From Pirellulales bacterium (lineage in GTDB: Bacteria; Planctomycetota; Planctomycetia; Pirellulales; JADZDJ01), in assembly GCA_035656635.1 (NCBI GenBank), contig DASRSD010000134.1:1-53012 (forward strand): a stretch of DNA of 53,012 nucleotides, given 5' to 3'. The notes under the pieces are model-generated. The model was not told the origin of the DNA, did not search any database, and saw nothing but the letters and a program-made list of their open reading frames with translations. This document shows, piece after piece, positions 8,247-28,629 of this stretch (positions are counted from its first letter, which is position 1; each line of letters opens with the position of its first letter). A program made the translations under genes and the position numbers.

Positions 8247-8323
8247 GTTTGCCGAGCAAAACCGGCCGACGGCTCTTAAGCTGCTGGCCGCCAGTTGGTA
8301 ATATATCGGCACTTCATTTGCTA

Positions 8324-10283: not shown

Positions 10284-12620
10284 TCACTGGGCCACACGAC
10301 CTGCCGTCGCTTCGTCCGCAGAGGAAAAACTTATGACCTTTTCCAAGTCCTCTAGGCTGATCGGCTTGATCAGGTGGTAATTGAAGCCGGCCTCTTTCGC
10401 CCGTTTGCGGTGGCTTTCTTGCCCGTACCCAGACAAGGCCACGAGGACAACTCCCACGAGATCCGGCTCTTGCCGCACGCGCCGGGCAAACTCGTAGCCA
10501 TCCATTTTCGGCATGGCAATGTCGGAGATGATCATATCGGGCCGTTCCCTGCGGGCATTCTGCAAAGCGGTAGCCGCGTCGTGGTTTATGGATACGCGAT
10601 GTCCTAGTTTTTCCAGAAGCTTGCCCAAGACGAAGACAGAATCTCGGGTATCGTCGACAATCATGATCCGGCGCGGAGGCGTCGCGGCCTTGTCCCCCAG
10701 AGCCGGCGTAACCTGCACGGGGCTCAGTGGCGCGGCTTGTGCCAAAGGCAATCGCACGACAAATTCGGATCCTTTTCCTAAGCCAGCGCTAAACGCTTCA
10801 ATTTTGCCATCATGCAATTGCACCAGATTTTTTGCCAGCGTGAGGCCAATTCCCAGACCGCCATGAGCGCGATCCAAAGTTTGTTCGCCTTGGGCAAACA
10901 TATTGAAAACTTTGGAGAGCATGTCGGGAGCAATTCCTAATCCGTTATCGCGCACCGACACGACCGCCAACTGGCCTTCCTGCCGGCCATTGATCCAAAC
11001 CTGCCCGCCATGAGGGGTATATTTGGCGGCATTATTCAACAAGTTGGCGACAACCTGAGCCAGCCGCAGGGGATCGGCCTGCAAGAGGATGGGTTCCGTG
11101 GGGACGCTGATCGCCAGTTGGTGCCCTGCGGCATCCAGCAGCGGCATGCTGGTTTCAATGGCGCTGCGCAAAATAGCAGCCAATTCGACCGATTCCTTGC
11201 GGAGCTCGATTTTATTGCGCGTGATCCGCGAAACTTCAAGCAGATCGTCAACGAGCCGAACCAGGTGGTTGACTTGTCGCTCCATGATTCCGCACACGCG
11301 TTCCGTGGTTGGACTCAGCTCGCCGGACATCCGCAAAATGTGCAGCGAGTTGCTAATGGGCGCCAGCGGATTGCGCAATTCGTGGGCCAGCGTTGCTAAA
11401 AACTCATCTTTGCGAGAATCCAAATCGCGCAGTGCCTGTTCGGCTTTCACACGCTGGGTGATATCGATCGCCATGCCGCCCACCATGGTCGGCTTGCCAT
11501 CGGCGGCTGGAATTGGAAATTTGCTGACGATGGAATGGTGCACGCCGTCGACTTGCTGCAGGGCCTCCACGGTTTCCACGCCGGCGCCGGCGGAAAGTGC
11601 CCGATGATCGTTTTCGCAAAATTGGGCGGCAATTTCGGGTGGAAAAATGTCGCGATCGCTTTTGCCCAGCAGCTCTGCTTTGGTTCGGCCAAAGGCCTTT
11701 TCCGCTGCGTCGTTGACGAACACGTAACGCCCGTTGGAATCTTTAATCCAGGCCAGTCCGGGCAAATACTGCATAAAATTGGCAAATCGTTGTTCACTTT
11801 CGCGAAGCGCAGCTTCGACCAGCTTTCGCTCCGTAATGTCGCGCGCTACTTTGGAAGCGCCGACAATGTGGCCGGAACGATCGCGCACAGAGGAGATCGC
11901 GAGCGAAATGTCCAATCGCCGGCCGTTTTTTGCGATGCGCACCGTTTCGAAATGGTCGATCCGCTCCCCCCGCCCAATTTTTTCGATGATGGCCGTTTCC
12001 TCGTGTTGGCGCTCGGGTGGAATAATGAGGGTAATCGGTTGGCCGATGGCTTCCTTGGCCGAATACCCAAAGATTCTTTCCGCGCCAGCATTCCAGGAAA
12101 GGATTCGGCCCTCGAGCGTTTTGCTGATAATGGCGTCATCGGAAGATTTAACAATGGCCGCTAGTAATGCTTGGGCGGTGGTGCCGTGGGCTTGCTCAGT
12201 AATATCGATCAATACATTGAGCGCACCAGTCAACTTGCCGGAGGCATCGTGGAGGGGGCTTACATGAGCGAGCACAGTGGAGCGGAAGCCGTCTGGCCGC
12301 TCGATAATAATTTCTTGGCGGATGTACGCTTTGCCGGTTTGTAGACCCAGTGCCATCCAGCACTGATCGTGAGGGACCGGTGTGCCATCGGCCAGGAAGA
12401 GCTTAAAGGAACCGCAAAAGCGGTCGACCGGATCGTTCAATTTCGGCTGGCGTCCCCACAGCTCGACCGCCTGAGCATTAAAGTAGGTAATCAGACCGTT
12501 GGCATCGCAAATATACGCGCCGGCAGGAAACCGATCTAAAATCTCCCGAAACTGCAGTTCGACAGGAGTGGAGAACGGTTCCGAATTGTCATGCGGAGGA
12601 TTGGAAGACGCGGGTTGCAT
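10284..12620 (-). CDS. Triple-PAS hybrid histidine kinase with receiver domain
   Basis: About 778 residues with the start at 12620 (MQPASSNPPHD); in-frame ATGs at 12647 and 12695 are alternatives. There is no transmembrane segment, so it is cytoplasmic. Three PAS domains occupy about 23-143, 151-267 and 275-390, the last two ending in the ARDITER / AIDITQR signatures that link PAS to output helices. HisKA has H413 in LAHELRNPLAPI, the ATPase domain has NLLNNAAKYT, DNGLGIAP and GGLGIGLTLAK, and the C-terminal receiver has D700 in IISDIAMPKMDG. Like the CHASE3 kinase, it ends in a receiver without output domain, which fits a phosphorelay. PAS domains suggest redox or small-molecule sensing, but no ligand can be read from sequence. 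Confidence 0.92.
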   Translation of the reverse strand: MQPASSNPPHDNSEPFSTPVELQFREILDRFPAGAYICDANGLITYFNAQAVELWGRQPKLNDPVDRFCGSFKLFLADGTPVPHDQCWMALGLQTGKAYIRQEIIIERPDGFRSTVLAHVSPLHDASGKLTGALNVLIDITEQAHGTTAQALLAAIVKSSDDAIISKTLEGRILSWNAGAERIFGYSAKEAIGQPITLIIPPERQHEETAIIEKIGRGERIDHFETVRIAKNGRRLDISLAISSVRDRSGHIVGASKVARDITERKLVEAALRESEQRFANFMQYLPGLAWIKDSNGRYVFVNDAAEKAFGRTKAELLGKSDRDIFPPEIAAQFCENDHRALSAGAGVETVEALQQVDGVHHSIVSKFPIPAADGKPTMVGGMAIDITQRVKAEQALRDLDSRKDEFLATLAHELRNPLAPISNSLHILRMSGELSPTTERVCGIMERQVNHLVRLVDDLLEVSRITRNKIELRKESVELAAILRSAIETSMPLLDAAGHQLAISVPTEPILLQADPLRLAQVVANLLNNAAKYTPHGGQVWINGRQEGQLAVVSVRDNGLGIAPDMLSKVFNMFAQGEQTLDRAHGGLGIGLTLAKNLVQLHDGKIEAFSAGLGKGSEFVVRLPLAQAAPLSPVQVTPALGDKAATPPRRIMIVDDTRDSVFVLGKLLEKLGHRVSINHDAATALQNARRERPDMIISDIAMPKMDGYEFARRVRQEPDLVGVVLVALSGYGQESHRKRAKEAGFNYHLIKPISLEDLEKVISFSSADEATAGRVAQ

Positions 12621-13095
12621 TTTCTTTGTGTCGCCGTGGGCGTACATCAAGCATTGATGAATCAAATTTTTTTTAGTTTTTTGTGCGGGGCGCAATAAGC
12701 ACTGCGAAAAATCTCCCTGGACTGGCTACATAACTTCCAGCTTGGCTAAAAAGGAACCAATGGGCAAGATGCCCGACTTATATCGGATGCATAATGAGAA
12801 GTAAAAAAACAGAGCGTGCGGGATTTATTGCGACGCTGCTCCATTAAGCAAATTCCAAACCAAAAGCTGGGCCAGTATGTGAAGATTGTTGGCAATCCAC
12901 CAGCATTCATCTCGGATTCACGTTGCGGCTGCCGTGAAAATCGAAACCGGCACTCAATTCGCGGGCATTTTTGGGCAGCGGGTTTTGAACCTTTCATTGC
13001 GGTTTTTCTAATCGGGCTATAGGCAGTCGAAAAGTGCCAATTTAGCCGCTTGAAGGTCAGGTTAACGTGGTTATGGGCGAATAGAGAAGAGTGAA
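12621..13095. other. 475-base gap between hybrid kinase and NtrC-type regulator; divergent promoter region
   Basis: Both flanking genes read outward, so their promoters must lie here. Short frames on either strand have no recognisable domain. A small dyad, GGGCA-AGA-TGCCC, lies at 12762-12774. Two weak sigma-54-like strings are present on the plus strand (12889-12905 and 12947-12963), each with the GG-N10-GC core but a poor -12 element; I do not call them. I see no other feature. Confidence 0.4.
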
Positions 13096-14550
13096 ATGCC
13101 AAAATTATTAGCCATTGACGATGACCGCTCGGTATTACGTCTCATCGAACAAGCATTCGCAAAATCGTCCTTTTCCGTTTTGTCGGCGGGTTGCGTCCAC
13201 GATGGACTGGAATTGATCGCGGAAAATCCAGATGTCGTGCTGCTGGATATGATGTTGCCCGATGTTTCGGGACTGGAGGCGGCCCGGCAAATTCACAGTA
13301 TGGATCCACAGTTGCCGGTGATGTTCATGACGACGTGCGGCAACAGCGAATTGGCCATCGAGGCCATGAAAATCGGCGCCTACGACTACTTGTTGAAGCC
13401 GCTCGATTTGCCGACGCTGAGGGGGTCTGTAGAGCGTGCCCTGGCGATTCGACGTCGCGTGGGCGAGCCATCGCAAGCCCAAACCTTGCGGGATGACGAC
13501 ACACACACCGAGCAAATTATCGGCCAGAGTCCCCAGATGCAGGAAGTGTTCAAGGCCATCGGCCGGGTGGCGCCACAAGATACAACAGTGCTTATTTTGG
13601 GCGAAAGCGGCACCGGCAAAGAGTTGGTGGCGCGGGCTATTTACCATCACAGCGACCGGGCAGCGGGGCCATTTTTAGCAGTAAATTGCGCCGCAATTCC
13701 GGAATCGCTGCTGGAAAGCGAATTGTTTGGGCACGAGAAAGGGGCATTCACCGGGGCCCATCAGCGCCGCGTGGGCAAGTTCGAGCAATGTTCCGGCGGC
13801 ACCATTTTTTTGGACGAAGTCGGCGATATGTCGCCGTTGGTTCAAAGTAAGGTCTTACGCGTTCTACAAGAGCAGCAATTTGAACGCGTGGGTGGTTCGG
13901 AAACGATCCAGGCGAACGTTCGGGTGATTGCTGCCACCAACCGCGACTTGCCGCAATTGGTGATACAAAAGCAATTTCGCGAGGATTTGTATTACCGGCT
14001 CAATGGATTTTTGATTCGAATTCCACCCTTGCGAGACAGAAATGGTGATTTGGCGATTTTGTTGCAGTATTTTTTACGGCGATTAAATCAAGAATTGGAG
14101 AAAAATGTTCGTGAATTTTCTCCGGATGTTTTGACGGTGCTGATGCATTATCCTTGGCCCGGAAATGTACGCGAACTAGAAACGGTGGTTCGGCAGTGTT
14201 TGTTGCAGTCGACTGGGCCGGTGATTTTGCCCGAGTTTATGCCGGAATCAGTACTCAACGAAAGCTGGACGGAAAGGCTTACAGGCATTCCAAGCAGCGA
14301 TTTGAAACCACTCGTTGACCGTTGCTTTCAGGACGAATCACGCTCGCTGTATCCCACAGCAGTGGAATTAATGGATCGCTATTTACTTGCCCGCACTTTG
14401 CGGCATACGAATGGAAATCAATCCAAGGCCGCAAAAATGTTAGGAATTACGCGCGCCAGCTTACGGCGAAAATTGCATGCGCGGAACATGTCGGTGGAGT
14501 CGGCCATTTCGGTGAAGTGCGATAACGACATGAACACGCCGGCGACATAG
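13096..14550 (+). CDS. NtrC-family sigma-54-dependent response regulator, orphan
   Basis: 484 residues. The receiver has D51 (VVLLDMMLPD) and K101 (LLKPLD). The AAA+ domain has Walker A GESGTGKE (169-176), GAFTGA (216-221) and IFLDEVGDMS as Walker B. The C-terminal Fis-type helix-turn-helix is NQSKAAKMLGITRASLRRKL. No kinase is directly adjacent in the same operon, but two hybrid kinases precede it and an HPt gene follows. It is a close paralogue of the regulator at 18563: long stretches around Walker A, GHEKG, VGDMSP and REDLYYRLNGF are identical. A GAAGAG-type ribosome binding site lies just before the ATG. The immediate downstream gene (DUF1328) carries a sigma-54 promoter, making it a natural target. 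Confidence 0.93.
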   Translation: MPKLLAIDDDRSVLRLIEQAFAKSSFSVLSAGCVHDGLELIAENPDVVLLDMMLPDVSGLEAARQIHSMDPQLPVMFMTTCGNSELAIEAMKIGAYDYLLKPLDLPTLRGSVERALAIRRRVGEPSQAQTLRDDDTHTEQIIGQSPQMQEVFKAIGRVAPQDTTVLILGESGTGKELVARAIYHHSDRAAGPFLAVNCAAIPESLLESELFGHEKGAFTGAHQRRVGKFEQCSGGTIFLDEVGDMSPLVQSKVLRVLQEQQFERVGGSETIQANVRVIAATNRDLPQLVIQKQFREDLYYRLNGFLIRIPPLRDRNGDLAILLQYFLRRLNQELEKNVREFSPDVLTVLMHYPWPGNVRELETVVRQCLLQSTGPVILPEFMPESVLNESWTERLTGIPSSDLKPLVDRCFQDESRSLYPTAVELMDRYLLARTLRHTNGNQSKAAKMLGITRASLRRKLHARNMSVESAISVKCDNDMNTPAT

Positions 14551-14625: not shown

Positions 14626-14642
14626 TTGGCACGCGGCGTGCT
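14626..14642 (+). promoter_or_regulatory. Sigma-54 promoter of the DUF1328 gene
   Basis: TTGGCACGCGGCGTGCT matches TTGGCACG-N4-TTGCT with one mismatch (G for the first T of the -12 element). GG and GC are separated by exactly ten bases. Transcription would start near 14653, about 70 bases before the ATG at 14724. GCTAAGCG, a sequence related to one upstream of two other promoters here, lies immediately upstream. Confidence 0.85.
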
Positions 14643-14723: not shown

Positions 14724-14894
14724 ATGTTATATTGGGCTGTAGTGTTTTTCATTGTGGCAATTTTTGCGGGTGCTTTCGGATTTTTGGGCTTAGCGGCGGG
14801 AGCTGCTGAGATTGCCAGAATTTTATTCTTCATTTTCTTGGCGCTGTTCGTCGTGAGCTTGCTGACTGGCATGCGTCCTCGAGGAACCGTCTGA
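14724..14894 (+). CDS. DUF1328 (YtjA-like) small membrane protein
   Basis: 56 residues, almost entirely two hydrophobic helices: MLYWAVVFFIVAIFAG, then FGFLGLAAGAAEIARILFFIFLALFVVSLLTG. This pattern (LYWAxxFFIVAIxAGxxGFxGxAxGAxxIA) is diagnostic of DUF1328. An AAAGGAG ribosome binding site sits nine bases before the ATG. Family members are inner-membrane proteins often induced by general stress; their molecular role is unknown. Here a near-consensus sigma-54 promoter precedes the gene and an NtrC-type regulator lies directly upstream. A strong hairpin without a T-run follows the stop codon. Confidence 0.92.
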   Translation: MLYWAVVFFIVAIFAGAFGFLGLAAGAAEIARILFFIFLALFVVSLLTGMRPRGTV

Positions 14895-15230: not shown

Positions 15231-16202
15231 TTATCCATTCGGCATGCCTTGGGCCGGCATGGTTCCGGCCGGTGAGGCTGAATTCGCATTATTGGAATTT
15301 CGCAAGGAACGACTATCTGGGGAATAATCTCTCCGATATCGTCGTCCATTTTCGTCAACGTAGTAACCGGACTGATTGCGATTCATATAATCGCCCCGAT
15401 ATGCTGTGCGATATTGCGTGGGCTGGTATTCGTCGGGATTGTAGCGATTCCAGTTGTTGCCTCGATAAAACATCCAATAGTTACCGGGCATCCAATACCA
15501 CCATTCGCCATTATTGAAAGTGAATCGCCAATCGTCAGGCCCATTCTGGCGAGATGAATTTGTCGGCAACCGGTTGGCGTTGAATTGATTGGTTTGCGGC
15601 TGATTGGGATTGAGGGTATTGTCCATGCTGCCGCCTCCTCCTAGCGCGTTCGTTGCCGTGCCGTTCGCCGTATTGACATTCGATTGATTCCCCGGCGGTA
15701 GCAGCGCAGATCCAGCACCAGTGCGGCTGTTCGGTCCGGTGTTTGGTTGATTTTGTAAGGCATTCGAAGGAGGCACGGGCACATTGCCGGTGGCGTTGGC
15801 GCCCCCCGTGCTATTGTTTGAACCAAAATTGGTGGACGGCCCAGTGTTTGGCTGATTTTCCAAGGCGTTCGGCTGAGCCATGGGAACATTTCCAGAAGTT
15901 CCTGGCACCCCATTTTCCGTCGGAGTATTCCCCGACGATCCGGGCATGCCATTCATAGAGTTTGTATTGCCCGACATTCCGGGCGCGCCTTGAGCAGATG
16001 CGCCACCGCCCGACTGGCCGGCTCCTGAGGTCCCAGTTCCGCCGCTGGTTCCACTGGCAGCCCCGCCACCTCCTGTTCCGGCACCTGCTGCTCCTACTCC
16101 TCCGGCCCCGCTGCCTCCTCCCGCTCCCGCAGCGAAAACTGAACTGACGCCAAATGCAACGCATCCAAGTGCAAGGGCAACGGCAGAAATGCGAAGTCTC
16201 AT
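15231..16202 (-). CDS. Secreted Gly/Asn/Pro-rich protein with C-terminal Trp/Tyr-rich module
   Basis: 323 residues. A signal peptide (about 1-24, ending SSVFAAG) is followed by a Gly/Ala/Ser-rich stretch to about 110. An Asn/Pro/Gly-rich region contains an imperfect repeat, PNALENQPNTGPSTN and SNALQNQPNTGPNS. A C-terminal module, about 225-300, is rich in aromatic residues (WRFTFNNGEWWYWMPGNYWMFYRGNNW, given here as the region around residues 225-252) and charged Tyr/Arg repeats. Similar 'NNGEWWYWMP' modules occur in planctomycete envelope proteins of unknown function. It probably acts outside the cytoplasmic membrane. A near-perfect sigma-54 promoter precedes it and an intrinsic terminator follows, so it is a single-gene unit. 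Confidence 0.75.
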   Translation of the reverse strand: MRLRISAVALALGCVAFGVSSVFAAGAGGGSGAGGVGAAGAGTGGGGAASGTSGGTGTSGAGQSGGGASAQGAPGMSGNTNSMNGMPGSSGNTPTENGVPGTSGNVPMAQPNALENQPNTGPSTNFGSNNSTGGANATGNVPVPPSNALQNQPNTGPNSRTGAGSALLPPGNQSNVNTANGTATNALGGGGSMDNTLNPNQPQTNQFNANRLPTNSSRQNGPDDWRFTFNNGEWWYWMPGNYWMFYRGNNWNRYNPDEYQPTQYRTAYRGDYMNRNQSGYYVDENGRRYRRDYSPDSRSLRNSNNANSASPAGTMPAQGMPNG

Positions 16203-16245: not shown

Positions 16246-16262
16246 TGCAAACCCTGTGCCAG
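16246..16262 (-). promoter_or_regulatory. Sigma-54 promoter of the Gly-rich secreted protein gene
   Basis: On the minus strand CTGGCACAGGGTTTGCA fits the -24/-12 consensus at all conserved positions (TGGCA and TTGCA, GG-N10-GC). The start of transcription would be near 16235, some 33 bases before the ATG at 16202. GCACTTAGC (plus-strand reading) lies 38 bases upstream at 16300-16308 and recurs upstream of the DUF883-like promoter. Confidence 0.87.
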
Positions 16263-16356: not shown

Positions 16357-16647
16357 TCAACCAGCCACAGCCGGCCACAATCGCACTGGCGGCGCGGATT
16401 TCGACGGATGCCATGTAACTTCCAGCTCGTCTCGCACTTGGCGAACACCGGCGACCCGTTGGCAACAACTGATGCACAACTGCCTTTCGTGGAAGGATTT
16501 GACTCTTCCTCGAATGGTGATAACCCCTTGCTGCGATTCGACTTTCACACGTCTCAGTTGCGCAAAATGCTTTTGTCCTAAGAAAATGCTCACGCGCCGC
16601 TCAAGTTCTCGGTCAAGATTGCTAACATTTTCGATTTCTCGCAGCAT
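16357..16647 (-). CDS. BON-domain protein
   Basis: 96 residues, nearly all one BON domain: a helix (NLDRELERRVSIFL), VKVESQQGVITIRGRVKSFHERQLC, then VAGVRQVRDELEV. 'V...G.I.L.G.V.S......A......GV..V...L' is the BON signature. BON domains bind membranes or other envelope components and are common in osmotic-shock proteins such as OsmY. There is no signal peptide, so this copy may be cytoplasmic or peripheral. Two adjacent cysteines (SCCQ) within the domain are unusual. A sigma-54-like promoter lies about 80-95 bases upstream. Confidence 0.85.
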   Translation of the reverse strand: MLREIENVSNLDRELERRVSIFLGQKHFAQLRRVKVESQQGVITIRGRVKSFHERQLCISCCQRVAGVRQVRDELEVTWHPSKSAPPVRLWPAVAG

Positions 16648-16972
16648 AATTGGGTCCGCCCTATAAGTTTTGCAATCTTGCCCCGTAGGCTCGGAATGCC
16701 TGAATAAAAACCGGCCTTAGCAAGTTGCAACTTTTATGCCGGCCTTGCAGCTGCGCACGTTTATGAGATGGGGAAATGGCTACTTCAAGAACAGCCTTTA
16801 AGAAGAAGAGGGGAAGACCACCCGCCCTTGTTGCGCAAGCTAATGCAGGCACATTTTTTGCATGTTCAAACCAAGTATTGGGCGCTTCTGAGTAACTGCG
16901 CCATTACAAATTCGATACAAATTTGGCGCGGGAATACTGTAAAATCAGGATCAGCCTCAAGGGAAAAAAGTT
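16648..16972. other. 325-base gap between divergent BON and HPt genes
   Basis: Contains the BON sigma-54-like promoter (16726-16742), which overlaps a perfect 12-base palindrome, AAGTTGCAACTT (16722-16733). CCGGC/GCCGG arms on either side followed by TTTTTATT on the minus strand give a weak terminator-like shape. No convincing gene is present. No clear sigma-54 promoter faces the HPt gene. Confidence 0.5.
16726..16742 (-). promoter_or_regulatory. Probable sigma-54 promoter of the BON gene
   Basis: On the minus strand CCGGCATAAAAGTTGCA has GGCA at -24, TTGCA at -12 and the exact ten-base GG-GC spacing. The bases before GG (CC) deviate from TT, but the same CCGGCAT form precedes treZ and the gene at 24709. 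Transcription would begin near 16714. Confidence 0.65.
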
Positions 16973-17371
16973 ATGGCGTCCAAAGTAAAAAATGTGGATT
17001 CCACTCATATCATACCGTCGGATGAGTCCAGCGAGGACACGGTGGTTTTCGATCTGCCAGGAACTTTGAGACGGTTAGGTGGCGACCACTCAATCTTGGT
17101 GGACTTGGTGAAAATGTTTGAGGAGGATTCCCCGGTTTTGCTGGAACGATTGCGCACAGCATCCGAGGCACACAATCTTGCACAGATCCAACAGGTCGCA
17201 CATAGCTTACGCGGACTCGCCTCAAATTTTGGCGCAAAGGAATTGATTCAATCGCTGCAAGAGTTAGAAGAGTTGGCAGCTACAGGGCATGTTGGAAACT
17301 TTTCGGCGCTAATCGAAAGAGTTCGCAGGGAAAAGACACGATTGGAGGAAGATCTTCGGTCGTATGTATGA
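16973..17371 (+). CDS. Stand-alone histidine phosphotransfer (HPt) protein
   Basis: 132 residues. A disordered, acidic N-terminus (about 1-25) is followed by an Hpt four-helix domain. The phosphoacceptor is H77 in QVAHSLRGLASNFGA, which matches the AHxLKGxAxxxGA family motif. The second half is the antiparallel helix pair (LIQSLQELEELAATG, LIERVRREKTRLEEDL). AAGGG lies upstream of the ATG. Free HPt proteins shuttle phosphate from hybrid-kinase receivers to response regulators. Two hybrid kinases lacking HPt domains and two orphan NtrC-type regulators surround it, which makes it the expected middle component of a relay. Confidence 0.92.
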   Translation: MASKVKNVDSTHIIPSDESSEDTVVFDLPGTLRRLGGDHSILVDLVKMFEEDSPVLLERLRTASEAHNLAQIQQVAHSLRGLASNFGAKELIQSLQELEELAATGHVGNFSALIERVRREKTRLEEDLRSYV

Positions 17372-17701
17372 GGAACGCCGAATTTCGGGGATGTTAAATT
17401 CCGCTGAAAAACGGCGATCATCTGAACGTTGGTCGCTCAAATCGTTCCAAACCGGCTCACAAGGGTTATTGAGGCCTCCAGGATTCCAAGGGGAATTCAG
17501 TTAATTTCAAGAAAAAGATATTTGTCCAAACTATCTATCTAAACCAGTTCAACTTTCTGCGTATATCCTGGGACGAACGGGCAGGCTACAAGAACTTCTA
17601 GGCCTGGACAGAATTAGATTGGCATCCAAATTGCTACCATAGGGGGCGAAACTGCTGCCGCGGATTCCCTGGCAGGAGCCAATTTCACGGAGGACATAAA
17701 A
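17372..17701. other. csrA: 330-base gap between HPt and csrA
   Basis: Contains the csrA sigma-54 promoter at 17619-17635. The remaining sequence has no credible gene; a 37-codon frame starting at 17391 lacks a ribosome binding site. No obvious terminator follows the HPt gene. Confidence 0.5.
17619..17635 (+). promoter_or_regulatory. csrA: Sigma-54 promoter of csrA
   Basis: TTGGCATCCAAATTGCT matches TTGGCACG-N4-TTGCT apart from the last two -24 bases; GG-N10-GC spacing is exact. Transcription would start near 17646 and give a leader of about 56 bases before the ATG at 17702. Confidence 0.87.
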
Positions 17702-17935
17702 ATGCTTGTGCTATCACGACGGGATGGAGAAGAGATTGCAATTGGCAATAATGTCAAAATCAAAGTGCTATCGAGCGTGCGCGGGCGAGTGCGGATCGGA
17801 ATTGAAGCCCCTCGCAATGTGCCTGTTACTCGTACAGAACTTCCGCCGAAGTTTGACCGACGCCAATTTGCGGAATTCGGCAGCCTAACAGGTGCAGAGC
17901 CTATTTTGCCGCTGTTAGCAGGCATTGCGCATTAA
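17702..17935 (+). CDS. csrA: CsrA translational regulator
   Basis: 77 residues. The first 48 are canonical CsrA: MLVLSRRDGEEIAIGNNVKIKV, RGRVRIGIEAPRNVPVTRTEL, with the RNA-binding R44-type arginine present. The rest is a longer tail than in the enteric protein, of unknown role. CsrA binds GGA-bearing hairpins near start codons and changes translation and mRNA stability. Its own ribosome binding site, ACGGAGGACAT, contains two GGA triplets, so autoregulation is plausible. A sigma-54 promoter drives the gene and a strong terminator follows. In many bacteria csrA is linked to motility or growth-phase control; here the neighbours are stress proteins and phosphorelay parts. Confidence 0.95.
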   Translation: MLVLSRRDGEEIAIGNNVKIKVLSSVRGRVRIGIEAPRNVPVTRTELPPKFDRRQFAEFGSLTGAEPILPLLAGIAH

Positions 17936-17982: not shown

Positions 17983-18015
17983 AAAAAATCCCCGACCACT
18001 GCCGGGGATTTTTTT
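17983..18015. terminator. Bidirectional intrinsic terminator between csrA and the DUF883-like gene
   Basis: ATCCCCG and CGGGGAT pair around an eight-base loop (17995-18002). A-run on the left and T-run of seven on the right give a terminator on both strands, serving csrA on plus and the convergent DUF883-like gene on minus. Confidence 0.93.
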
Positions 18016-18058: not shown

Positions 18059-18388
18059 TTACCGTCGGCAGAATAATAATCCGGCCAGGAACCCGACGCC
18101 TAATGCCGCGAAAATTGAACTTACTGGTCGCTGCTGGACCTGTCGTTCGAACGACTGTTCCAGGGAGCCGACCCGTGCCCGTCCTTGATCGACGTACTCT
18201 TGGGCTGTGTTTCGTACGCCTTCGTACCCATCCTTGACGGCGTCGATGGCTTCGCCCCCCATTTGCTGGAAGGTATGCATCATACCGTTGCCTTCTTCTT
18301 CCGCAGTATTGCGCATGCGTCGGGCTGCGGAACGCATTTGCTTGGCGCCCCGTCGCGCGTGGCGGCCTATGTTCGATGCATGAGACAT
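18059..18388 (-). CDS. YqjD/ElaB/DUF883-like protein with C-terminal membrane anchor
   Basis: 109 residues from the ATG at 18388, which has AAGGAG eight bases upstream (the ATG six bases earlier is too close to this site). An Arg/Ala-rich basic N-terminus, a long amphipathic helix (about 35-80, AIDAVKDGYEGVRNTAQEYVDQGRA) and a C-terminal hydrophobic helix with a terminal basic tail (PVSSIFAALGVGFLAGLLFCRR). The layout is that of ElaB/YqjD proteins, which are stress-induced, anchored in the inner membrane and in E. coli bind ribosomes. A strong sigma-54 promoter precedes it and the upstream gene on the same strand is an NtrC-type regulator. Confidence 0.8.
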   Translation of the reverse strand: MSHASNIGRHARRGAKQMRSAARRMRNTAEEEGNGMMHTFQQMGGEAIDAVKDGYEGVRNTAQEYVDQGRARVGSLEQSFERQVQQRPVSSIFAALGVGFLAGLLFCRR

Positions 18389-18471
18389 GATCATAACTCC
18401 TTGGTGTAAATAGTCGCTTTAAAGAGCATCGCTTTTCGACGTGCAAAAGCAGATCCTGCCCCATTAAGATA

Positions 18472-18488
18472 AGCAAGAGCCGTACCAA
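18472..18488 (-). promoter_or_regulatory. Sigma-54 promoter of the DUF883-like gene
   Basis: On the minus strand TTGGTACGGCTCTTGCT matches the consensus with one substitution in -24 (T for C) and a perfect TTGCT -12. Transcription would start near 18461. A dyad, GGCGCA and TGCGCC (18502-18519), and the motif GCACTTAGC (18522-18530) lie just upstream, where an enhancer-binding protein could sit. Confidence 0.88.
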
Positions 18489-18562: not shown

Positions 18563-20041
18563 TTAGGCTTCGCTAGCAATCGGCTCGTCGGCTGCCCCGT
18601 TTTCTTCCAGATTTACCGTTCGTTCAATACTAATTCCCAGCAGCCGAATTTTGTTGCGTAGACTACCGCGCGTGATCCCGAGAATTTCGGCGGCTTTGGA
18701 TTGATTTCCATCGGTATGGGTCAACACAGCGGTGAGCAGTGTCCGCTCCATGGCTTCCAAAATTTCGGCATAAAGCGACTGCGAGCCGGCCTGGAGCCGT
18801 TGTTGAATCAAGGTCGTCAGGTCACATTCCGGACCAGGCTTGCCGGCATTTGCCGTCGCCTCGGAGGTCTGGCCACGCACCTCTGAAGGCAACAGGTCTG
18901 CCATCAACACAGGGCCCGTCGCCTGTACCATGGCTTGCTTGAGTACGCTTTGCAACTGCCGCACATTACCCGGCCACGAGTAATTCATTAGCACGTCGAG
19001 CAGTTCGGGCGAAAAGCCATGAACGTCTTTGTCCAAATCTTTTTTGAAGCGATTCAAAAACCAATCCAGCAACAACAAAATGTCTTCTTTACGTTCTCGA
19101 AGCGGGGGAATTTTAATCGTGAAGCCATTCAGTCGGTAATAGAGGTCTTCGCGGAATTTACTGTGGGCCACCATGTGTTCCAAATCACGATTGGTCGCCG
19201 TGATGATGCGCACGTCGGTTTGGATGGTTTGCGTACCCCCGACGCGTTCGAATTTTTGCTCCTGCAACACGCGTAACACTTTGCTTTGCATGACGGGAGA
19301 CATATCGCCGACTTCGTCCATAAATAAGGTGCCACCGGAGCACTGCTCGAACTTTCCAATCCGCTGGCTAGTAGCGCCGGTGAACGAGCCTTTCTCGTGG
19401 CCGAATAACTCGCTTTCCAGCAAAGTTTCCGTAAGGGCTGCGCAATTGACCGCTAAAAATGGGCCCGAGGCCCGGTCGCTGTGATGGTAGATCGCTCGGG
19501 CCACCAATTCTTTGCCGGTGCCGCTTTCGCCGCGGATCAATACGGCCACATTTTGCGATGCTACACGTCCAATGGCTTTGTACACTTCTTGCATTTGCGT
19601 GGTGCGGCCGACCAGCGAATCGCCATTGGCGCTGTTAGGATCCTGGCTTTGCACACGCACCGGCACATGCATCAACCGCCGCATCTCTAGAGCTTGCCCA
19701 ACCAATTCACGAACACGTGCCAGATCGAGCGGCTTAAGCAAATAATCGAAAGCGCCCAATTTCATCGCTTCAATCGCCGTGTCGCTGGTGCCCCCTACCG
19801 TGATGAATACGACCGGCACCTTGGCATCCAAATCGCGTAATCTGCGATACGCATCCAGGCCCGAGAGATCCGGAAGCATGATATCCAGCAATACCACGTC
19901 AATCGAGCCTTGCCGCATGCGCTCGATTCCATCCGCTGCAGAACTCGCAGAAATCACTTCAACTTCCGATTGATTGGAAAACGCTTTTTCAATTAGATGA
20001 ACGACGGACCGGTCGTCATCAATCACCAGGACGTTTGGCAT
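18563..20041 (-). CDS. NtrC-family response regulator, orphan, with GSFTGA loop
   Basis: 492 residues. Receiver with D53 (VVLLDIMLPD) and K103; Walker A GESGTGKE at 171-178; Walker B LFMDEVGDMS; C-terminal Fis-type helix-turn-helix NQSKAAEILGITRGSLRNKI. The sigma-54 contact loop is GSFTGA (218-223) rather than GAFTGA. Ser at this position is tolerated in some activators, so it is probably still active. It is a close paralogue of the regulator at 13096, sharing long identical blocks. An AAGGA site lies about ten bases before the ATG. The downstream gene on the same strand has its own sigma-54 promoter and is a likely target. Confidence 0.93.
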   Translation of the reverse strand: MPNVLVIDDDRSVVHLIEKAFSNQSEVEVISASSAADGIERMRQGSIDVVLLDIMLPDLSGLDAYRRLRDLDAKVPVVFITVGGTSDTAIEAMKLGAFDYLLKPLDLARVRELVGQALEMRRLMHVPVRVQSQDPNSANGDSLVGRTTQMQEVYKAIGRVASQNVAVLIRGESGTGKELVARAIYHHSDRASGPFLAVNCAALTETLLESELFGHEKGSFTGATSQRIGKFEQCSGGTLFMDEVGDMSPVMQSKVLRVLQEQKFERVGGTQTIQTDVRIITATNRDLEHMVAHSKFREDLYYRLNGFTIKIPPLRERKEDILLLLDWFLNRFKKDLDKDVHGFSPELLDVLMNYSWPGNVRQLQSVLKQAMVQATGPVLMADLLPSEVRGQTSEATANAGKPGPECDLTTLIQQRLQAGSQSLYAEILEAMERTLLTAVLTHTDGNQSKAAEILGITRGSLRNKIRLLGISIERTVNLEENGAADEPIASEA

Positions 20042-20271: not shown

Positions 20272-22329
20272 TCAAGAATTGGGAGCAGCGGTGCTAGCGG
20301 AAGATGTTTTGACCCAACTCCTTAGCACTTCGGCCACGCTCCATGCCTGCGCGATGCAACCTCGTGCATGGTACGGTCCTTCAGCATCGAAAACCTCGCT
20401 GATCGATCCCAAGCAAGACTCGTTCAAGTGGCTTTCAAAAGCGGCCAGCAGCTTGCGCGCCTGGCTTAACTGGCCCGGATAGATTCGAAGCCAGGCATCA
20501 ATGTACGATCCGATCAGCCAGGCCCACACGGTTCCTTGATGATAGGCGGCATCTCGGGAGCGTAAATCGCCATCATACGTTGGCTTGTAATCGGCATGCC
20601 CCGGAGCGAGCGATCGTAGACCCATGGGGGTTAGCAATCGCTCGGCCACCAATTCCATAACCGGCTTCCAGCGCGATTCGTCCAGGACCGGAAAATCGAG
20701 GGAAATGGCGAACACTTGATTTGGCCGGAAGGCAGTGTCATTTCCTTTTTCACCGTCGATCACATCGTACAAGTAACCTCCGGCGTCGTACCAAAACCGT
20801 TGGTTGAATGCAGTCCGGGTTTGAGCGATGCGCTCGGCCAGGGCTGTGGCAGCGGTTGCATTTCCCACCGCGCGGCTCCAGTGTTCGAGCAAGCACAGGG
20901 CGTTGTACCACAGCGCATTGATCTCCACTGCTTTGCCGCGACGGGGGGTCACGACCCAATCGCCAACCTTGGCATCCATCCAGGTAAGCTGATAGCCTTC
21001 CTGTCCCTGCGACAACAGCCCATCTTTCGGATCGACATGAATTCCGAATCGGGTGCCGAGCACATGATGTTCTACAATATCGTGCAGCGTGGGAAGCAAA
21101 ACGTACAGCGTTTCCGTGTCGTTGGTTGCACGCAGGTAACGCTCCAGCGCGTGAAAGTACCATAAAGTGGCGTCAGCAGTATGATACCTGCCTTCGGCTT
21201 CACCCTCGGGAAACAAATTTGGAATTAGTCCGTCTTTGGCATAGCGGCCAAATGTGCGCAGCAAAAAACCAGCTTCGCTTTGCCGACCGGTCAACAGCGT
21301 CAGGCCTTCCAAGCTAATCATCGTGTCGCGGCCCCAATCGGTGAACCAATGGTATCCGGCAATCACGGTTCGCACATCGTCGCCGGCGGCATGAGCGACG
21401 GCCACATCTGCCACACGGGTCGTAGGCCGAATAATGAATTGATCGGCAGCTAGCACCAATTCGGCGGCGAAGCCTTCCTGTGCTTTTGGATTCGATTGAA
21501 ACAGCAATCGTTCGCGGCGTTGCAGTTCTGATTCCTGCGCCGCATGGGGCTCGACGGCTAAAATGGTGTCCCAATCTTCCGTGGAACCAACGAGCGTGAC
21601 CTCGTCGCCGGGATTCAAATCCGCGCGGAAATAACCGGGGCTCCACAGTTTGCCCGTGTCTTCATATCCTCGGGCGCGCTCGGTCCGATAGTGAATTTCG
21701 CGAAAACGCCCGTCCAAGACCATGTTGCAGCGATTCGCAATCAAGACCATTTTGAGCGGCGGAGCGATTTCGGAGCGAACCTCAAATCGTTCGTTCATCG
21801 CAGTAAACGAATACGATTTGGGCAGCTCGCCATTGACCGGCGCTTCATGAGGCCGAAAGTGAAATGAAGGCCGCAATCGCAAGCGCAATCCGCCGGGAGA
21901 TGATAGCAGCCGATAATTAACGTGCACCGTGTTTTGCAAATGGGGCATGAGCACGCGTTTTTCGAGTTCCACAGCTCCCACTTCATACCGCCAAACCGGC
22001 AGCCCTGATTCCAAGCGGAACTCGACTAGATTGCCGGCATGTAAAGTTAAACCTCTGGCAGAAACTTCGTCGGCATCGAGTCGGATGATCTTTCGATCTT
22101 CCAACTTGATTTCCTCCGCCAAATGGTTAAACATCAAAAACCGACCTAGCGGCGCCGGCAGTGCGGCAATCAATAAACCGTGATAGCGGCGGGTGCACGT
22201 TCCCGCAGGGGTGCCTGAGGCATATCCGCCCAAGCCATTGGTAACCAGCCACTCGCGCCCCACCAGAACTTCCGGGTCGCGCTCGCGGAGAGCAGGGCGA
22301 TACATTCGGTGTTGAATTTGGGTGCTCAT
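20272..22329 (-). CDS. Amylo-alpha-1,6-glucosidase, glycogen debranching enzyme (GH133-type)
   Basis: 685 residues. The N-terminal beta domain has [17 protein letters not shown] and [11 protein letters not shown], hallmarks of the bacterial/archaeal GDE N-terminal domain. The C-terminal (alpha/alpha)6 barrel contains [58 protein letters not shown] and the late [14 protein letters not shown], with the acidic residues expected for a glucosidase active site. It removes alpha-1,6 branches from glycogen-type glucans. It starts nine bases after the treZ stop, so both are one operon. No TreX-type (GH13) isoamylase is seen in the window; this enzyme may fill that role. Confidence 0.93.
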   Translation of the reverse strand: [685 protein letters not shown]

Positions 22330-22338
22330 CTGCAGCTG

Positions 22339-24285
22339 CTATTTCGAAAATTCGGCGTTTGTCGCGCCTTCCAGACCTGCACGATTGGTGCCAACCGCTT
22401 GAAATACGGTTGTCGATTCGCCCTCGATTGACCAGCCAGCTTCGGTTTCCTGAGTGACGGCGCCCGCGCCGCCATACCGTGGTGCGTTGCTGTTCCACAG
22501 CAATTGCCATCGGCGGTCGGCAGGCGGCGCCAGTAGCGGCTCCGCAATCGGGAAATAATTCAGCTTTTGCCCAAAATTGATGATGATCACCCGATCGTCT
22601 CCATCTCCGCCAAAATAGCGGATTAGAAAGCAGTCGGTGCTCAAAATCGCAGTATCCAAGGCGTCGGCCTGTTGACGGCAAAACACGGAATCTTCTCGGC
22701 GAAGTTTCAGCAAATCGATGTGCAAATCGTACAGGGGACGATTTGTTTCTCGATCAGCAAAGTTCAGTTTGCAGCGGTGGAAGGTTGCAGGATCGGTTGG
22801 ATTTGGCAACTTGCGCTGCGCTTCCTGGGAGCTTAGCGAGGGAAACTGCGACATAAATTTGGCTCTCCCCGCAACGACTGCCGCGGCCATTTGGCCGGAG
22901 AAATCGGCAAAAAACAGAAACGGGCTGGAGGCGGCAAATTCTTGCCCCTGAAAAAACAGCGGCGTTTGAGGCATAAGTAGCCACAACGCGATCATCGCTC
23001 GATAACGGTTTGGGCTGGTTAACTGGTGAAGTCGTTGGCCCGTTGGTGAATTTGCGACCTGGTCGTGATTTTCCAGAAAGCTGACGAACGCCCACGCCGG
23101 CAACCCGGTGGTTGGCGTTCCTCGCCGTTTGTTTTGCCAGCGGGAATGTTGGCCTTGATAAATTAAACCCCGCTTCACCGAAGCTGCTAATTCCTCCACC
23201 GTCCCGGAAAAGTCGGAATAATAAGCTGGATTGGCGCCGGTAAGTTGAACGTGAGCTGCATGGTGAAAATCATCATTCCACATTCCATCCAACCCCCATC
23301 CATGCTCCTCGGGCGGTTTAAGCGCGGCGACATCCTCGGGTTCGTTTTCCGCTACGAGATAAAGTGTGCGATTGCCGGCGCCCTCTTTTGCCGCGCGTCC
23401 AACTGCGGCCAGTATGTACTCGTCGGAGTTGTCAAAGATTTGCTGCGTGGCATCGAAACGGAAGCCGTCTAGATGAAATTCCTCAATCCAATATCGCGCA
23501 TTGGCCGTAAAGAATTCGCGCACCGCGGTTGAGTTGTGGCCGTCAAAATTAATTGCGTCGGCCCATTCGTTTTGGTATGCCGCGGATTTAAAGTTATCGG
23601 CAAATACCCCCAGGTAATTGTCGACATTCCCGAAATGGTTATAAACAACGTCCAAAATAACGCCCAACCCAGCTGCATGAGCCGCGTCGACAAAGCGCCG
23701 AAGGTCATCTGGTGTGCCATACAAATGCGTCGGCGCGAACATCAAAACACCGTCGTAACCCCAACCAAACCGCCCAGAGAACTCCGCCACGGGCATGACT
23801 TCGATTACAGTAATTCCAATGCGAGCCAGTTCCGCCAGCTCTTCCGCTGCGGCCTCGAAAGTCCCTTTCGCGGTAAAGGAACCCACATGCATCTCGTAGA
23901 TTACCTGGCCGCGTGGCCCCAAACCTTTCCAGGTGTGATCTGACCACGCAAAAGATTGCGGATCTACAATTTGGGATAGTCCGGTCGTTCCCTGGGGTTG
24001 GAACCTAGACGCCGGGTCGTTGAAAATCTTCGGCTGGTTGTCTATTCGGAAGCCATAGAGCATGCCCGGTTTTGCGTCCTCGCGATGCAGAAAGTAATAG
24101 CCGGTGCCTTCCGTTTTCATTCGAAAATGTTCCATTTCGTTCGGACGTGCAGAATCGAGCGCGAGAGACAAATACACGCGGCGAGGCTTTGGGGCCCAAA
24201 TTCGGAAATGCACCCCGCCTTCTGGCAAGCATTCCGCGCCCACGGGAAGGCGGCGTTCGTGCAATTGGGGGATAGTTTTTTGCAT
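22339..24285 (-). CDS. treZ: Malto-oligosyltrehalose trehalohydrolase
   Basis: 648 residues, a normal length for TreZ. It releases trehalose from maltooligosyl-trehalose made by TreY. An N-terminal CBM48-like domain (about 10-100, GAECLPEGGVHFRIWAPK) precedes the GH13 barrel: MPVAEFSGRFGWGYDGV, VILDVVYNHFG, nucleophile D278 in GFRFDATQQI, acid/base E313 in LVAENEPED and D408 in FLENHDQV. The barrel order and the 'AEN' acid/base motif separate it from branching enzyme. It is the first gene of a two-gene operon with the debranching enzyme. A sigma-54-like promoter lies about 60 bases upstream. No Shine-Dalgarno is visible. Confidence 0.95.
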   Translation of the reverse strand: MQKTIPQLHERRLPVGAECLPEGGVHFRIWAPKPRRVYLSLALDSARPNEMEHFRMKTEGTGYYFLHREDAKPGMLYGFRIDNQPKIFNDPASRFQPQGTTGLSQIVDPQSFAWSDHTWKGLGPRGQVIYEMHVGSFTAKGTFEAAAEELAELARIGITVIEVMPVAEFSGRFGWGYDGVLMFAPTHLYGTPDDLRRFVDAAHAAGLGVILDVVYNHFGNVDNYLGVFADNFKSAAYQNEWADAINFDGHNSTAVREFFTANARYWIEEFHLDGFRFDATQQIFDNSDEYILAAVGRAAKEGAGNRTLYLVAENEPEDVAALKPPEEHGWGLDGMWNDDFHHAAHVQLTGANPAYYSDFSGTVEELAASVKRGLIYQGQHSRWQNKRRGTPTTGLPAWAFVSFLENHDQVANSPTGQRLHQLTSPNRYRAMIALWLLMPQTPLFFQGQEFAASSPFLFFADFSGQMAAAVVAGRAKFMSQFPSLSSQEAQRKLPNPTDPATFHRCKLNFADRETNRPLYDLHIDLLKLRREDSVFCRQQADALDTAILSTDCFLIRYFGGDGDDRVIIINFGQKLNYFPIAEPLLAPPADRRWQLLWNSNAPRYGGAGAVTQETEAGWSIEGESTTVFQAVGTNRAGLEGATNAEFSK

Positions 24286-24345
24286 TGATACGCGACTAGG
24301 GCGCCATCATTAAACGGAAGGCGGGAATTCTATGCTCTCCCATTT

Positions 24346-24362
24346 TGCACACGCTATGCCGG
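24346..24362 (-). promoter_or_regulatory. treZ: Probable sigma-54 promoter of treZ operon
   Basis: On the minus strand CCGGCATAGCGTGTGCA carries GGCA and GTGCA with exact GG-N10-GC spacing. It resembles the BON promoter (same CCGGCATA). Transcription would start near 24335, about 50 bases before the treZ ATG. Confidence 0.6.
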
Positions 24363-24549
24363 GGCCAAACCCTTATTGCCAATTGACGGCGCGAGTGCTA
24401 TACGCGAGTGGATTTCAGGGTCTGGCGTATTTTCAGTGAACTAAAAGCTCTGTAAAAAATGTGATGCTTTCAAAACCAAAATGGTCGCACTTAAGCCAAT
24501 TCATTCTTTTATTTCTATCGCATTGGCACAACACTGAAAACCCTATGAT

Positions 24550-24566
24550 CCGGCATTAAACCTGCA
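24550..24566 (+). promoter_or_regulatory. Possible sigma-54 promoter upstream of the 24709 gene
   Basis: CCGGCATTAAACCTGCA has GGCA, TGCA and the correct ten-base spacing, but a C at the first -12 position and CC before GG. The start would be near 24577, leaving a leader of about 130 bases. Confidence 0.45.
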
Positions 24567-24708
24567 TAGCAACAGGCGCCGGTACCTATGTGAGAATGGG
24601 ACTGGGATATTCCGACGATGCATCGCATGGACCGCATTGCTTTGTCGCTTTATGGTTGGCAAGTTCGGCCCTGAAAGAATCATGTTGCTATAAGAAAGGC
24701 AAGTTGTT

Positions 24709-25011
24709 ATGCCCCGGGGAGAAAAATCTAAGTACACGAATAAACAAAAGCGTCAGGCGGAGCATATTGAGGAAGGCTATGAGGATCGCGGAACGCCAAA
24801 AAATGAAGCCGAACGACGCGCTTGGGCCACCGTAAATAAGATGACTCACGGCGGCCGAAAACCGGGCGGTTCCGGTCGTGGAACCAAGACCGACAAAAGC
24901 GCGGCAAAAAAAGGCGGCCGCTTAGGCGGAGCCGCTGCGGGTGCCCGATCGGCTGCCGAACGGTCCGCTTCTGCTCGGAAAGCCGCTCGAACCCGGGCAC
25001 GCAGCGGTTAG
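24709..25011 (+). CDS. Small basic protein of the 'plasmid stabilisation' / stress-protein type
   Basis: 100 residues, strongly basic. The N-terminus MPRGEKSKYTNKQKRQAEHIEEGYEDRGTP..EAERRAWATVNK (residues 1-44) is a conserved short module found in many Gram-negative genomes, usually annotated as a plasmid stabilisation or hypothetical protein; no toxin or antitoxin partner is next to it here. The rest is a Gly/Lys/Arg/Ala-rich tail resembling nucleic-acid-binding tails (KKGGRLGGAAAGARSAAERSA region). AAAGG lies upstream of the ATG. It sits between treZ and treS and may share their stress control. Confidence 0.7.
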   Translation: MPRGEKSKYTNKQKRQAEHIEEGYEDRGTPKNEAERRAWATVNKMTHGGRKPGGSGRGTKTDKSAAKKGGRLGGAAAGARSAAERSASARKAARTRARSG

Positions 25012-25090
25012 CAATTATCCCTGACCCCTCTCCCCCGACGTACACTTGAATGTTTGGTCGCTGCTGAATTGGCAGAATTTTTCGGCGGTC

Positions 25091-25119
25091 TTCGCGGGCT
25101 TGCTTGGTGGGTCTATAAT
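25091..25119 (+). promoter_or_regulatory. Possible sigma-70-type promoter of treS-treY
   Basis: A perfect -10 box TATAAT (25114-25119) is preceded at 17 bases by TTCGCG (25091-25096), a weak -35 box. The start would be near 25126, about 24 bases before the treS ATG. No sigma-54 core with a proper -12 element was found here. Confidence 0.45.
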
Positions 25120-25149
25120 GCCTGGTCGACAAGCATTGATTTATAGGTT

Positions 25150-28100
25150 ATGCCTCCGGAATCCCTCACAGCACCTGCCTTCGCCTCGGAAATACATCGG
25201 GGCGCCGTCGAAGGTGGTCCGGTTTGGTATAAGGACGCCGTTATCTATCAGGTGCACGTGCGTGCGTTTGCCGATAGTTCCGGCGATGGCGTCGGCGATT
25301 TTCCCGGCCTGACCAGCAAACTCGACTATTTGCAGGACCTAGGCGTTACCGCACTGTGGTTGTTGCCGTTTTATCCATCTCCACTGAAGGATGATGGGTA
25401 CGACATTGCCGATTACACCAGCGTGCATCCATCTTATGGCACGTTGCGAGATTTCAAAGCGTTTTTGCGAGATGCCCATGTACGCGGGCTGCGAGTGATC
25501 ACCGAGTTGGTATTGAACCATACCTCCGATCAGCACCCATGGTTTAAGCGTGCGCGGCGCGCTAAGCCCGGTTCTTCCGCGCGAGATTTTTACGTCTGGA
25601 GCGACACGGCAGACAAATACAAGGAAGCCCGAATCATTTTCAAAGATTTCGAGGCGTCCAACTGGACATGGGATCCCGTGGCCAAGGCATATTACTGGCA
25701 TCGGTTCTATTCTCACCAGCCGGATTTGAACTTCGAGAATCCGCAAGTGCGAAAGGCGTTGTTGGAAACGGTTTCATTCTGGTTAGAAATGGGAGTGGAT
25801 GGCATGCGGTTGGACGCGGTGCCCTATTTGTTCGAGTGCGAAGGAACTAATTGCGAAAACTTACCGGAGACGCACGCTTTTTTGAAAGAGCTGCGCCGCT
25901 ATGTGGACGCCCGGTTTTCGGATCGCATGCTCCTGGCGGAAGCCAACCAATGGCCAGAAGATGCCATTGCCTACTTCGGCGATGGCGACGAGTGCCATAC
26001 GGCTTTTAATTTTCCCGTCATGCCGCGCCTGTTTATGGCCAAGCATATGGAAGACCGATTTCCCATCGTCGACATTCTGCAGCAAACGCCCCCTATCCCC
26101 GCCAACTGCCAATGGGTTTTGTTTTTGCGAAACCACGATGAATTGACCTTGGAAATGGTCACGGATGAAGAGCGTGACTACATGTACCGAGTTTATGCTC
26201 ACGATCCGCAAGCGCGGATCAACTTGGGCATTCGACGACGATTGGCGCCCCTGTTAAATAACAACCGCCGGACCATCGAATTATTGCAGGGCTTGCTATT
26301 TTCGCTGCCGGGCACTCCGGTCATTTACTACGGCGACGAAGTCGGCATGGGGGATAACATTTATCTCGGCGATCGTGACGGCGTGCGCACGCCGATGCAG
26401 TGGAGCTCCGACCGTAATGCTGGTTTTTCGCGAGCTAATCCGCAAAAGCTGTACTTGCCGGTAGTGATTGATCCGGAGTATTTGTACGAAACGGTAAATG
26501 TAGAAACGCAGCGAAACAATCCACAATCGTTGTGGTGGTGGATGAAGCGGTTAATTGCCGTGCGAAACCAGCATCCTGCCTTTGGGCGCGGCTCGCTCGA
26601 ATTGCTGCTGCCAGAAAATGCGAAAGTGCTAGCCTTCGTGCGGCAGTTGGACGATGATCAAGTATTGGTCGTGGCCAATCTTTCGCGTTTTTCTCAGTAT
26701 GTAGAACTCGACCTGTCCGCGTATGAAGGCCGGGTGCCTGTGGAGTTGTTTGGGCATAATCGCTTCCCAACGATCGGCAAGCTGCCATATTTGCTCACGC
26801 TGGGACCGCACGCCTTTTATTGGTTTGCGCTAGCGCCCTCGGAAATAACACCCACGGATGGAAAACTTAGTATGCAATCCGACGGCAAGCCCGAAGATCG
26901 GCTGCCGCGCGCGAATGTTCATGCGCATTGGGCCGAAATTTTTCAAGGGCGGGCGAAGACTCAATTGGAAGCGTCGCTGCGCGGTTGGTTGTGCGGGCAA
27001 CGTTGGTTCAGCGGCAAAGCGCGAACCATTCAGAACGTTACCATTACCAACGCCGTGCTGCTGGGCAACTCGCCGGCAGATCCGCTAGCCAGATACCTGG
27101 CGTTGGCTCAAGTAGATTACACCGATGGCGAGCCAGAAATCTATTTGTTGCCGCTAGGTTTTGTTGCCGGAGATGCTTTGGAGTCATTTCTTGCTGCGGC
27201 ACCTAAATCAGCCATACTCCGCGTTCACCTGCGCGATACCAAGCAAGCCGGTGTAGTCTTCGATGCTACGAGCGACGCCGCGTTTGCCGCCGCGCTGTGG
27301 GATACCTTGGATCGCCGCCGTCGATGGAAGAGCCAAACCGGCGAACTTACCGTTTCTCATTTGCCTACACTGCGGACTTTTTTGCCTGCGGACATGGGAG
27401 CTTTGCCTGCAGTGGTCGTTAAGGGCGAGCAAAGTAATACCTCAATTATTTACGGCGATAAGGCCATTTTGAAATTGTTTCGCGGGATCAAGCCTGGCGT
27501 TAATCCGGATTTGGAAATCGGGCGGTTTTTTGTCGAACATGGAAATTTTCCCCATACGCCGCCGTTGCTGTCCGCTTTGGAATATGAAACGGAAGGCAGC
27601 GAACCGCTCACCTTGGCAGTTTTAAATGTCTTCGTGCCGCAAACGGAAACTGCCTGGCAGTTCGCATTGGATAATTTGAGCCGCTATTTCGAGCAAGTTT
27701 TGACACTGCCGATGGAAAGGTGGCCCCGTTCCGAGGGATTGGGGAATCAGTCGTTGTGGGAGATCGCTGCCGTGCCTTCTCCCGCGCCAATCCAAGAACT
27801 CGCCAGCGGTTTTCTGCACGCGGCAACTTTGTTAGGGCAGCGCACTGCAGAAATGCACAAGGCTCTGGCTTCCGATCCGGAAACGCCGACCTTTGCGCCA
27901 GAAGTATTCTCGCAACTCTATCAGCGTTCGCTGTATCAATCTGCGCGAAAATCGGCGGTGCAAAATCTGCAACGTTTGAAAAAGCGATTAAGCCATCTTT
28001 CGCCCCGGGCTCAGCAACTCGGTCGCCAAGTATTGGATCAGGAAAAGCATGTCCTGGATCAACTGAAATCGATTACTTCCGGCAGGATTGTGGCCGAACG

Positions 28101-28569
28101 AATTCGCTGCCACGGCGATTACCATCTCGGGCAGGTATTGTACACCGGTAAAGATTTCGTAATCATCGATTTCGAAGGTGAACCGCTCCGTTCTTTTTCC
28201 GAGCGCCGCATCAAATGTTCGCCGCTTCAAGATGTCGCCAGCATGATCCGCTCGTTTCATTATGCCGCTGCGCAAGGCTTCAATCATGTGGCTGTTGCTG
28301 GATTGCACACCCCGGAAACTACGGAGCCGCTAAAGCACGCTGGAACCGCCTGGGCAATTTCTATTGTGGGCACTTTCTTGCAGGCTTATCAAACGACCAT
28401 TGGAAACGCTGCATTTTTTCCCCCGGCGGCAAAGGACCGCGAATTACTGTTGAATTTTTATTTGCTTCAAAAGGCGATTTATGAGATGGGATATGAGTTG
28501 AATAATCGTCCGGATTGGGTGGAAATTCCGTTGGCCGCAATCATTTACCTATTGGGCGGAAAACCGTGA
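25150..28569 (+). CDS. treS: Trehalose synthase / maltokinase fusion (TreS-Mak)
   Basis: 1139 residues, two enzymes in one chain. Residues 1-565 are TreS, a GH13 enzyme interconverting maltose and trehalose: [15 protein letters not shown], the catalytic triad D222 ([12 protein letters not shown]), E264 (LLAEANQWP) and D330 (LRNHDEL), and [14 protein letters not shown]. Residues from about 590 to the end are maltokinase, which makes maltose-1-phosphate with ATP: an N-terminal cap ([16 protein letters not shown]), HGDYHLGQ (988-995) as catalytic loop and IIDFEGEP (1005-1012) as metal-binding site. The fusion couples trehalose to maltose-1-phosphate, the donor for GlgE; no glgE is in this window. 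treY follows after 60 bases, likely in the same operon. Confidence 0.95.
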
Positions 28570-28629
28570 GTCGTCCGGCGTGATCGAATGCCTGCACTTT
28601 GCCCAGAACTTTTTTAATCTCCGTGCTCC

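Follow-up and report, generated by a model that had tools for sequence, protein, structure and literature searches.

A probable sigma-54 promoter of a diverged csrA paralogue in a predicted stress island of a Pirellulales bacterium

The csrA paralogue at 17702-17935 on the plus strand of the window, which is a stretch of 53,012 nucleotides of DNA from a Pirellulales bacterium with a gene list made from open reading frames rather than curated annotation, very probably has its own sigma-54 promoter, and judged by its sequence and surroundings the gene most probably belongs to the sigma-54 targets of a stress circuit of the Hpt/response-regulator type. We thus hold it to be quite probable that this csrA is transcribed by sigma-54 polymerase within a stress island and activated via a kinase, an Hpt protein and an NtrC-type activator. 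In such a circuit, sigma-54 RNA polymerase would transcribe csrA from an element at 17620-17635 with a leader of about 56 nt, the likely relay would run from kinase to Hpt to the receiver of the activator, the phosphorylated activator would bind upstream and remodel the sigma-54 polymerase, and induction would raise the level of a CsrA-family protein, which would then alter the translation of mRNAs. The activator named, the order of the phosphorelay and the targets of CsrA are what we infer for this circuit.

The promoter element upstream of csrA

An earlier note on this DNA had placed a correctly spaced -24/-12 element 67 nt before the csrA start codon, and this is borne out. The element, TGGCAT-N5-TTGCT (TGGCATCCAAATTGCT, 17620-17635, plus strand), agrees with the consensus TGGCAC-N5-TTGC at 10 of 11 positions and has a GG-GC register of 12 nt, its last base lies 67 nt from the ATG at 17702, and the start site is expected near 17646. 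Since matches to the bare consensus are frequent (54 in the window at two mismatches or fewer against 36.5 expected), a matrix of 20 columns was trained on 25 promoters of related islands with all csrA and all window sites left out, and chance expectations were taken from simulation of the base order of the window. The csrA element scores 16.2 bits, corresponding to a P of about 6e-6 per position and a chance expectation of about 0.0007 in the stretch 25-170 nt upstream, although it should be mentioned that the training sites were first picked by consensus, so that the -24/-12 scores are independent of csrA and not of the consensus. With a closely similar matrix the top three positions on both strands of the window are the promoters of the DUF1328, Gly-rich protein and csrA genes, the csrA element ranking third. 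One-mismatch matches at 8307, 30779 and 31853 were set aside, being found inside genes or with no gene at a usable distance. The source genome has one copy of rpoN (PF04552, 212.9 bits), and a scan of the plus strand of the hpt-csrA interval found no sigma-70-like match.

The 3' side of the gene is closed by a bidirectional intrinsic terminator at 17983-18014, shared by csrA on the plus strand and the DUF883 gene on the minus strand, with a hairpin that is good on both strands and a fold z of -3.4. The claim that a terminator isolates the csrA unit therefore stands for this side, but nothing similar is found between hpt and csrA, where the only weak terminator-like match (17481-17498) is without a T-run. 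As no strong terminator follows hpt, transcripts started at the hpt promoter may also run on into csrA, and it may be argued that csrA is transcribed mostly in this way, or from an unrecognised sigma-70 promoter, with an incidental -24/-12 match. This notion agrees with the facts that hpt and csrA are found on the same strand only 330 nt apart with just the weak match between them, and that planctomycete sigma-70 promoters are poorly known and may escape a scan. It is however made very improbable by the score and position of the csrA element, which chance is very unlikely to produce together, and by the recurrence of the same promoter arrangement at csrA genes of related genomes. Sequence statistics and comparison lend good support to the identity of the putative sigma-54 promoter of csrA.

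The leader and its GGA triplets

The Shine-Dalgarno region of csrA, read directly at 17689-17694 on the plus strand, contains two GGA triplets, as noted earlier, where feedback by way of these triplets had been proposed. This would have CsrA repressing its own translation through GGA sites of the leader in addition to the promoter control, and the idea draws on the two triplets of the Shine-Dalgarno region, on two further ones upstream, one of which sits in the loop of a possible short hairpin UGGC-AGGA-GCCA (17670-17681, plus strand, read directly) that could conceivably be a CsrA site, and on the precedent of E. coli, in which CsrA autoregulates. However, a GGA in the Shine-Dalgarno region is usual, being found in 149 of 155 csrA genes, with two or more in 43 of the 155. 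Furthermore, the GGA density of 28 sigma-54 csrA leaders (1.50 per 100 nt) equals that of shuffles (1.40) and is below that of other csrA genes (1.89), and the hairpin is missing from the minimum-energy fold of the leader, which with a z of -0.8 is no better than shuffles. With leaders showing neither GGA enrichment nor a stable hairpin, the triplets are those of an ordinary ribosome-binding site, and the feedback loop, while its two triplets are indeed in place, is unsupported and must be considered doubtful.

csrA promoters in related genomes

A census of 155 distinct csrA genes, each taken together with its 230 nt of upstream sequence and gathered by their similarity to the CsrA of the window and not by promoter, contained sense sigma-54 sites of at least 13 bits at 34 genes, as compared to 2 in the antisense direction and 0.4 in shuffles, and the majority of the 34 sense sites are found 63-91 nt before the ATG. 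The sigma-54 label clusters on the CsrA protein tree (13 changes against 33.7 with shuffled labels), and one group of 16 consists of sigma-54 genes throughout, in a tree that is short of columns and in which the gene of the window is unplaced. In three named relatives, Stieleria and kin with CsrA proteins 60-63% identical, an invariant block of 27 nt (AAATAGAAAAATTGGCTCAACATTTGC) ending in the -12 GC is found 89-95 nt before the csrA ATG; as evidence for a putative promoter this block is modest, because the upstream regions as a whole are 92% alike. Another csrA paralogue of the source genome itself (L005) likewise has a sigma-54 site, of 15.8 bits. The separate promoters of the csrA copies, about one fifth of which are of the sigma-54 type in this sample, suggest that the copies answer different signals, and CsrA activity could consequently be set through the transcription of paralogues.

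The stress island and its candidate activator

Between two NtrC-type regulators there are six small genes, coding for DUF1328, Gly-rich, BON, Hpt, CsrA and DUF883 proteins, and sigma-54 sites are found at all six, with chance expectations of 0.0004 to 0.017 each. Besides that of csrA, these are the sites of the DUF1328 gene (14724-14894; site 14627-14642, plus strand, 17.6 bits), the Gly-rich protein gene (15231-16202; a perfect site at 16246-16261, minus strand, 16.8 bits), the BON gene (16357-16647; a sigma-54-like site at 16726-16741, minus strand, 11.2 bits, about 0.015 expected), the hpt gene (a sigma-54-like site at 16847-16862, plus strand, 11.0 bits, about 0.017 expected) and the DUF883 gene (18059-18394; site 18472-18487, minus strand, 12.9 bits). 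The hpt gene itself (16973-17371, plus strand) codes for a phosphotransfer protein (PF01627, E 7.6e-13), and another genome of this family has a relative that is 43% identical. The candidate regulator at 18563-20041 on the minus strand is, by domain search and translation, a sigma-54 activator of the NtrC type with a receiver, an AAA+ domain with GSFTGA and a Fis-type HTH, and the regulator on the other side (13096-14550, plus strand) is its paralogue, 57% identical, with a receiver, an AAA+ domain with GAFTGA and a Fis-type HTH. Domain search furthermore identifies a PAS hybrid histidine kinase with a C-terminal receiver at 10284-12695 on the minus strand. The matrix scan gave no sigma-54 sites before the two NtrC-type regulators, the hybrid kinase or treS.

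Genes for glycogen debranching, TreZ, TreS-maltokinase and TreY adjoin the island (20272-31287 of the window), treZ among them with a sigma-54-like site of 12.8 bits (24361, minus strand). Since glycogen genes are classical targets of CsrA, the glycogen and trehalose genes are natural candidates for targets of the CsrA encoded beside them.

Upstream of 37 island promoters, a search for dyads returned GGTCG-N5-CGACC five times, where shuffles gave at most two, and the spacer of 5 nt alone was enriched (10 of 36 above threshold, 0.9 expected), none of the other spacers standing out. A matrix built from 15 sites outside the window was then run on 40 new independent loci and gave 52 matches of at least 13 bits, 29 of which have a sigma-54 site 30-250 nt downstream as compared to 2.6 expected. 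In many genomes of the order (L070, L083, L227-L263) the full palindrome, TGGTCG-N5-CGACCA, precedes sigma-54 sites close to NtrC-type regulators. We regard it as a candidate activator site of the stress regulon, and its co-location with activators of the 18563 type leads us to infer that it would be bound by this family. Of 296 genomes of the order, 75 contain relatives of the 18563 regulator (53-71% identity, E <= 1e-160), and the genes for these are often found beside Hpt, kinase, DUF1328 and DUF883 genes.

In the window, a degenerate copy of the palindrome (CTGAACGTTGGTCGCTCAA, 17422-17440, 10.8 bits) is found 198 nt upstream of the csrA -24; with the matrix trained outside the window it ranks seventh there, with about 0.017 expected by chance, and as an activator site of this csrA it is suggestive only. 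The matrix scan showed no palindrome at the hpt, BON and DUF883 promoters of the window. In the related island L070, csrA has the sigma-54 site TGGCACATAACATGCA, and 171 nt further upstream the palindrome is perfect (TTGGTCGAACGACGACCAA), while in L083 a perfect -24/-12 element precedes a BON-csrA pair. Among about 51 islands examined, csrA is found in only a few, these being that of the window, L070 and L083, with csrA further off in L074, L247 and L257. As a core gene of the islands csrA must indeed be rejected, since the 2 copies in 40 independent islands are not far from the roughly 0.9 expected by chance (at 8 copies per 6 Mb, for 638 kb), and csrA is thus an occasional member.

These observations bear on the possibility that the sigma-54 site is real but served by another activator of the genome instead of the island pair, csrA being there by chance. 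Many csrA genes outside such islands have sigma-54 sites, including the paralogue of the source genome, the palindrome of the csrA in the window is weak, and csrA is rare among the related islands. On the other hand, every neighbouring small gene has a sigma-54 site, L070 and L083 too have csrA next to the same activator, Hpt, kinase and BON genes, and the palindrome is perfect at one of these two csrA loci. We therefore find this alternative rather unlikely and favour activation from within the island. The earlier proposal of a csrA tied to a sigma-54 activator and a stress circuit is in this way upheld by statistics, neighbourhood and relatives as regards sigma-54 control and the link to the circuit, but with a palindrome as degenerate as that of the window the role of one particular activator is plausible only.

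Relation to earlier predictions

For Pirellula sp. strain 1 (Rhodopirellula baltica), Studholme and Dixon (2004, as cited in PMC12316311) predicted a sigma-54 promoter of csrA, and COG1551 (CsrA) is enriched among the predicted sigma-54 targets of Planctomycetia (PMC12316311, 2025). The former, in the form in which PMC12316311 cites it, is likewise a planctomycete csrA with a predicted -24/-12 promoter, and differs in that the csrA of the window is found in a stress island with an Hpt protein and two activators and that a candidate activator site is described. The class-wide association of csrA with sigma-54 in PMC12316311, obtained by a matrix scan by gene family, is in agreement with the 34 of 155 genes of the present census. 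The text of PMC12316311 was found to mention neither DUF1328 nor CsbD, csrA is not named in the R. baltica stress microarray paper PMC2754498, and a literature search for the island or the palindrome found no paper, which is weak evidence of novelty. The csrA of the window is thus a well-supported further example of planctomycete sigma-54 csrA promoters predicted earlier, while this csrA member, the anatomy of the island and the candidate activator site are new.

In enterobacteria, RpoS, the stress sigma factor, controls CsbD and DUF1328 proteins, which are small general-stress proteins. The kinds of protein are similar here (DUF1328, CsbD, DUF883), whereas the promoters are of the sigma-54 type and the activators of the NtrC family. 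We would give even chances to the broader notion that many planctomycetes of the Pirellulales type run a sigma-54 general-stress regulon, in which a hybrid kinase, Hpt and an NtrC-type family recognising TGGTCG-N5-CGACCA would control small stress proteins (DUF1328, CsbD, DUF883, ferritin-like), and which would now and then have taken in csrA paralogues to serve as a translational arm. With the candidate palindrome, the island regulon can be put to a direct test.

The CsrA protein and its paralogues

The 77-residue product of the island csrA matches PF02599 with 69.8 bits (cut-off 27, E 1.9e-19) and scores 57.2 bits against the NCBIfam equivalog TIGR00202, that is, below the cut-off of 70.1 for canonical CsrA, and by these profile scores it is to be classed as a diverged paralogue. 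Residues 1-52 are matched by solved CsrA structures, and in an ungapped alignment of these residues to E. coli CsrA, L4, R6, R7 and R44, which we take to be the RNA-binding residues of the latter, are all kept. The nearest named records are from Stieleria, Rhodopirellula and other planctomycetes. Close direct orthologues were not found, the best matches being 46-63% identical over the domain, a closely similar csrA was looked for and not found in a genome of the same genus, and placement of the protein in a tree failed on account of a long branch and 56 columns.

The source genome (G000; 4.9 Mb in 190 contigs) has 8 csrA copies, and the relatives searched have 2-14 CsrA copies each, none being without. 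Since the sole FliW gene found (G000:C33:18406-19074; L002, L223) adjoins a different csrA copy, the paralogue in the flagellar CsrA-FliW pair is probably not the one of the island. Two more copies are found 1.3 kb apart (G000:C90; L078, 4889 and 6151; also L079), both with sigma-54-like sites (TGGCACACCCTCTGCA and CGGCATTAACGTTGCA) 77-79 nt upstream, and a genome of the same family holds a csrA pair resembling this one.
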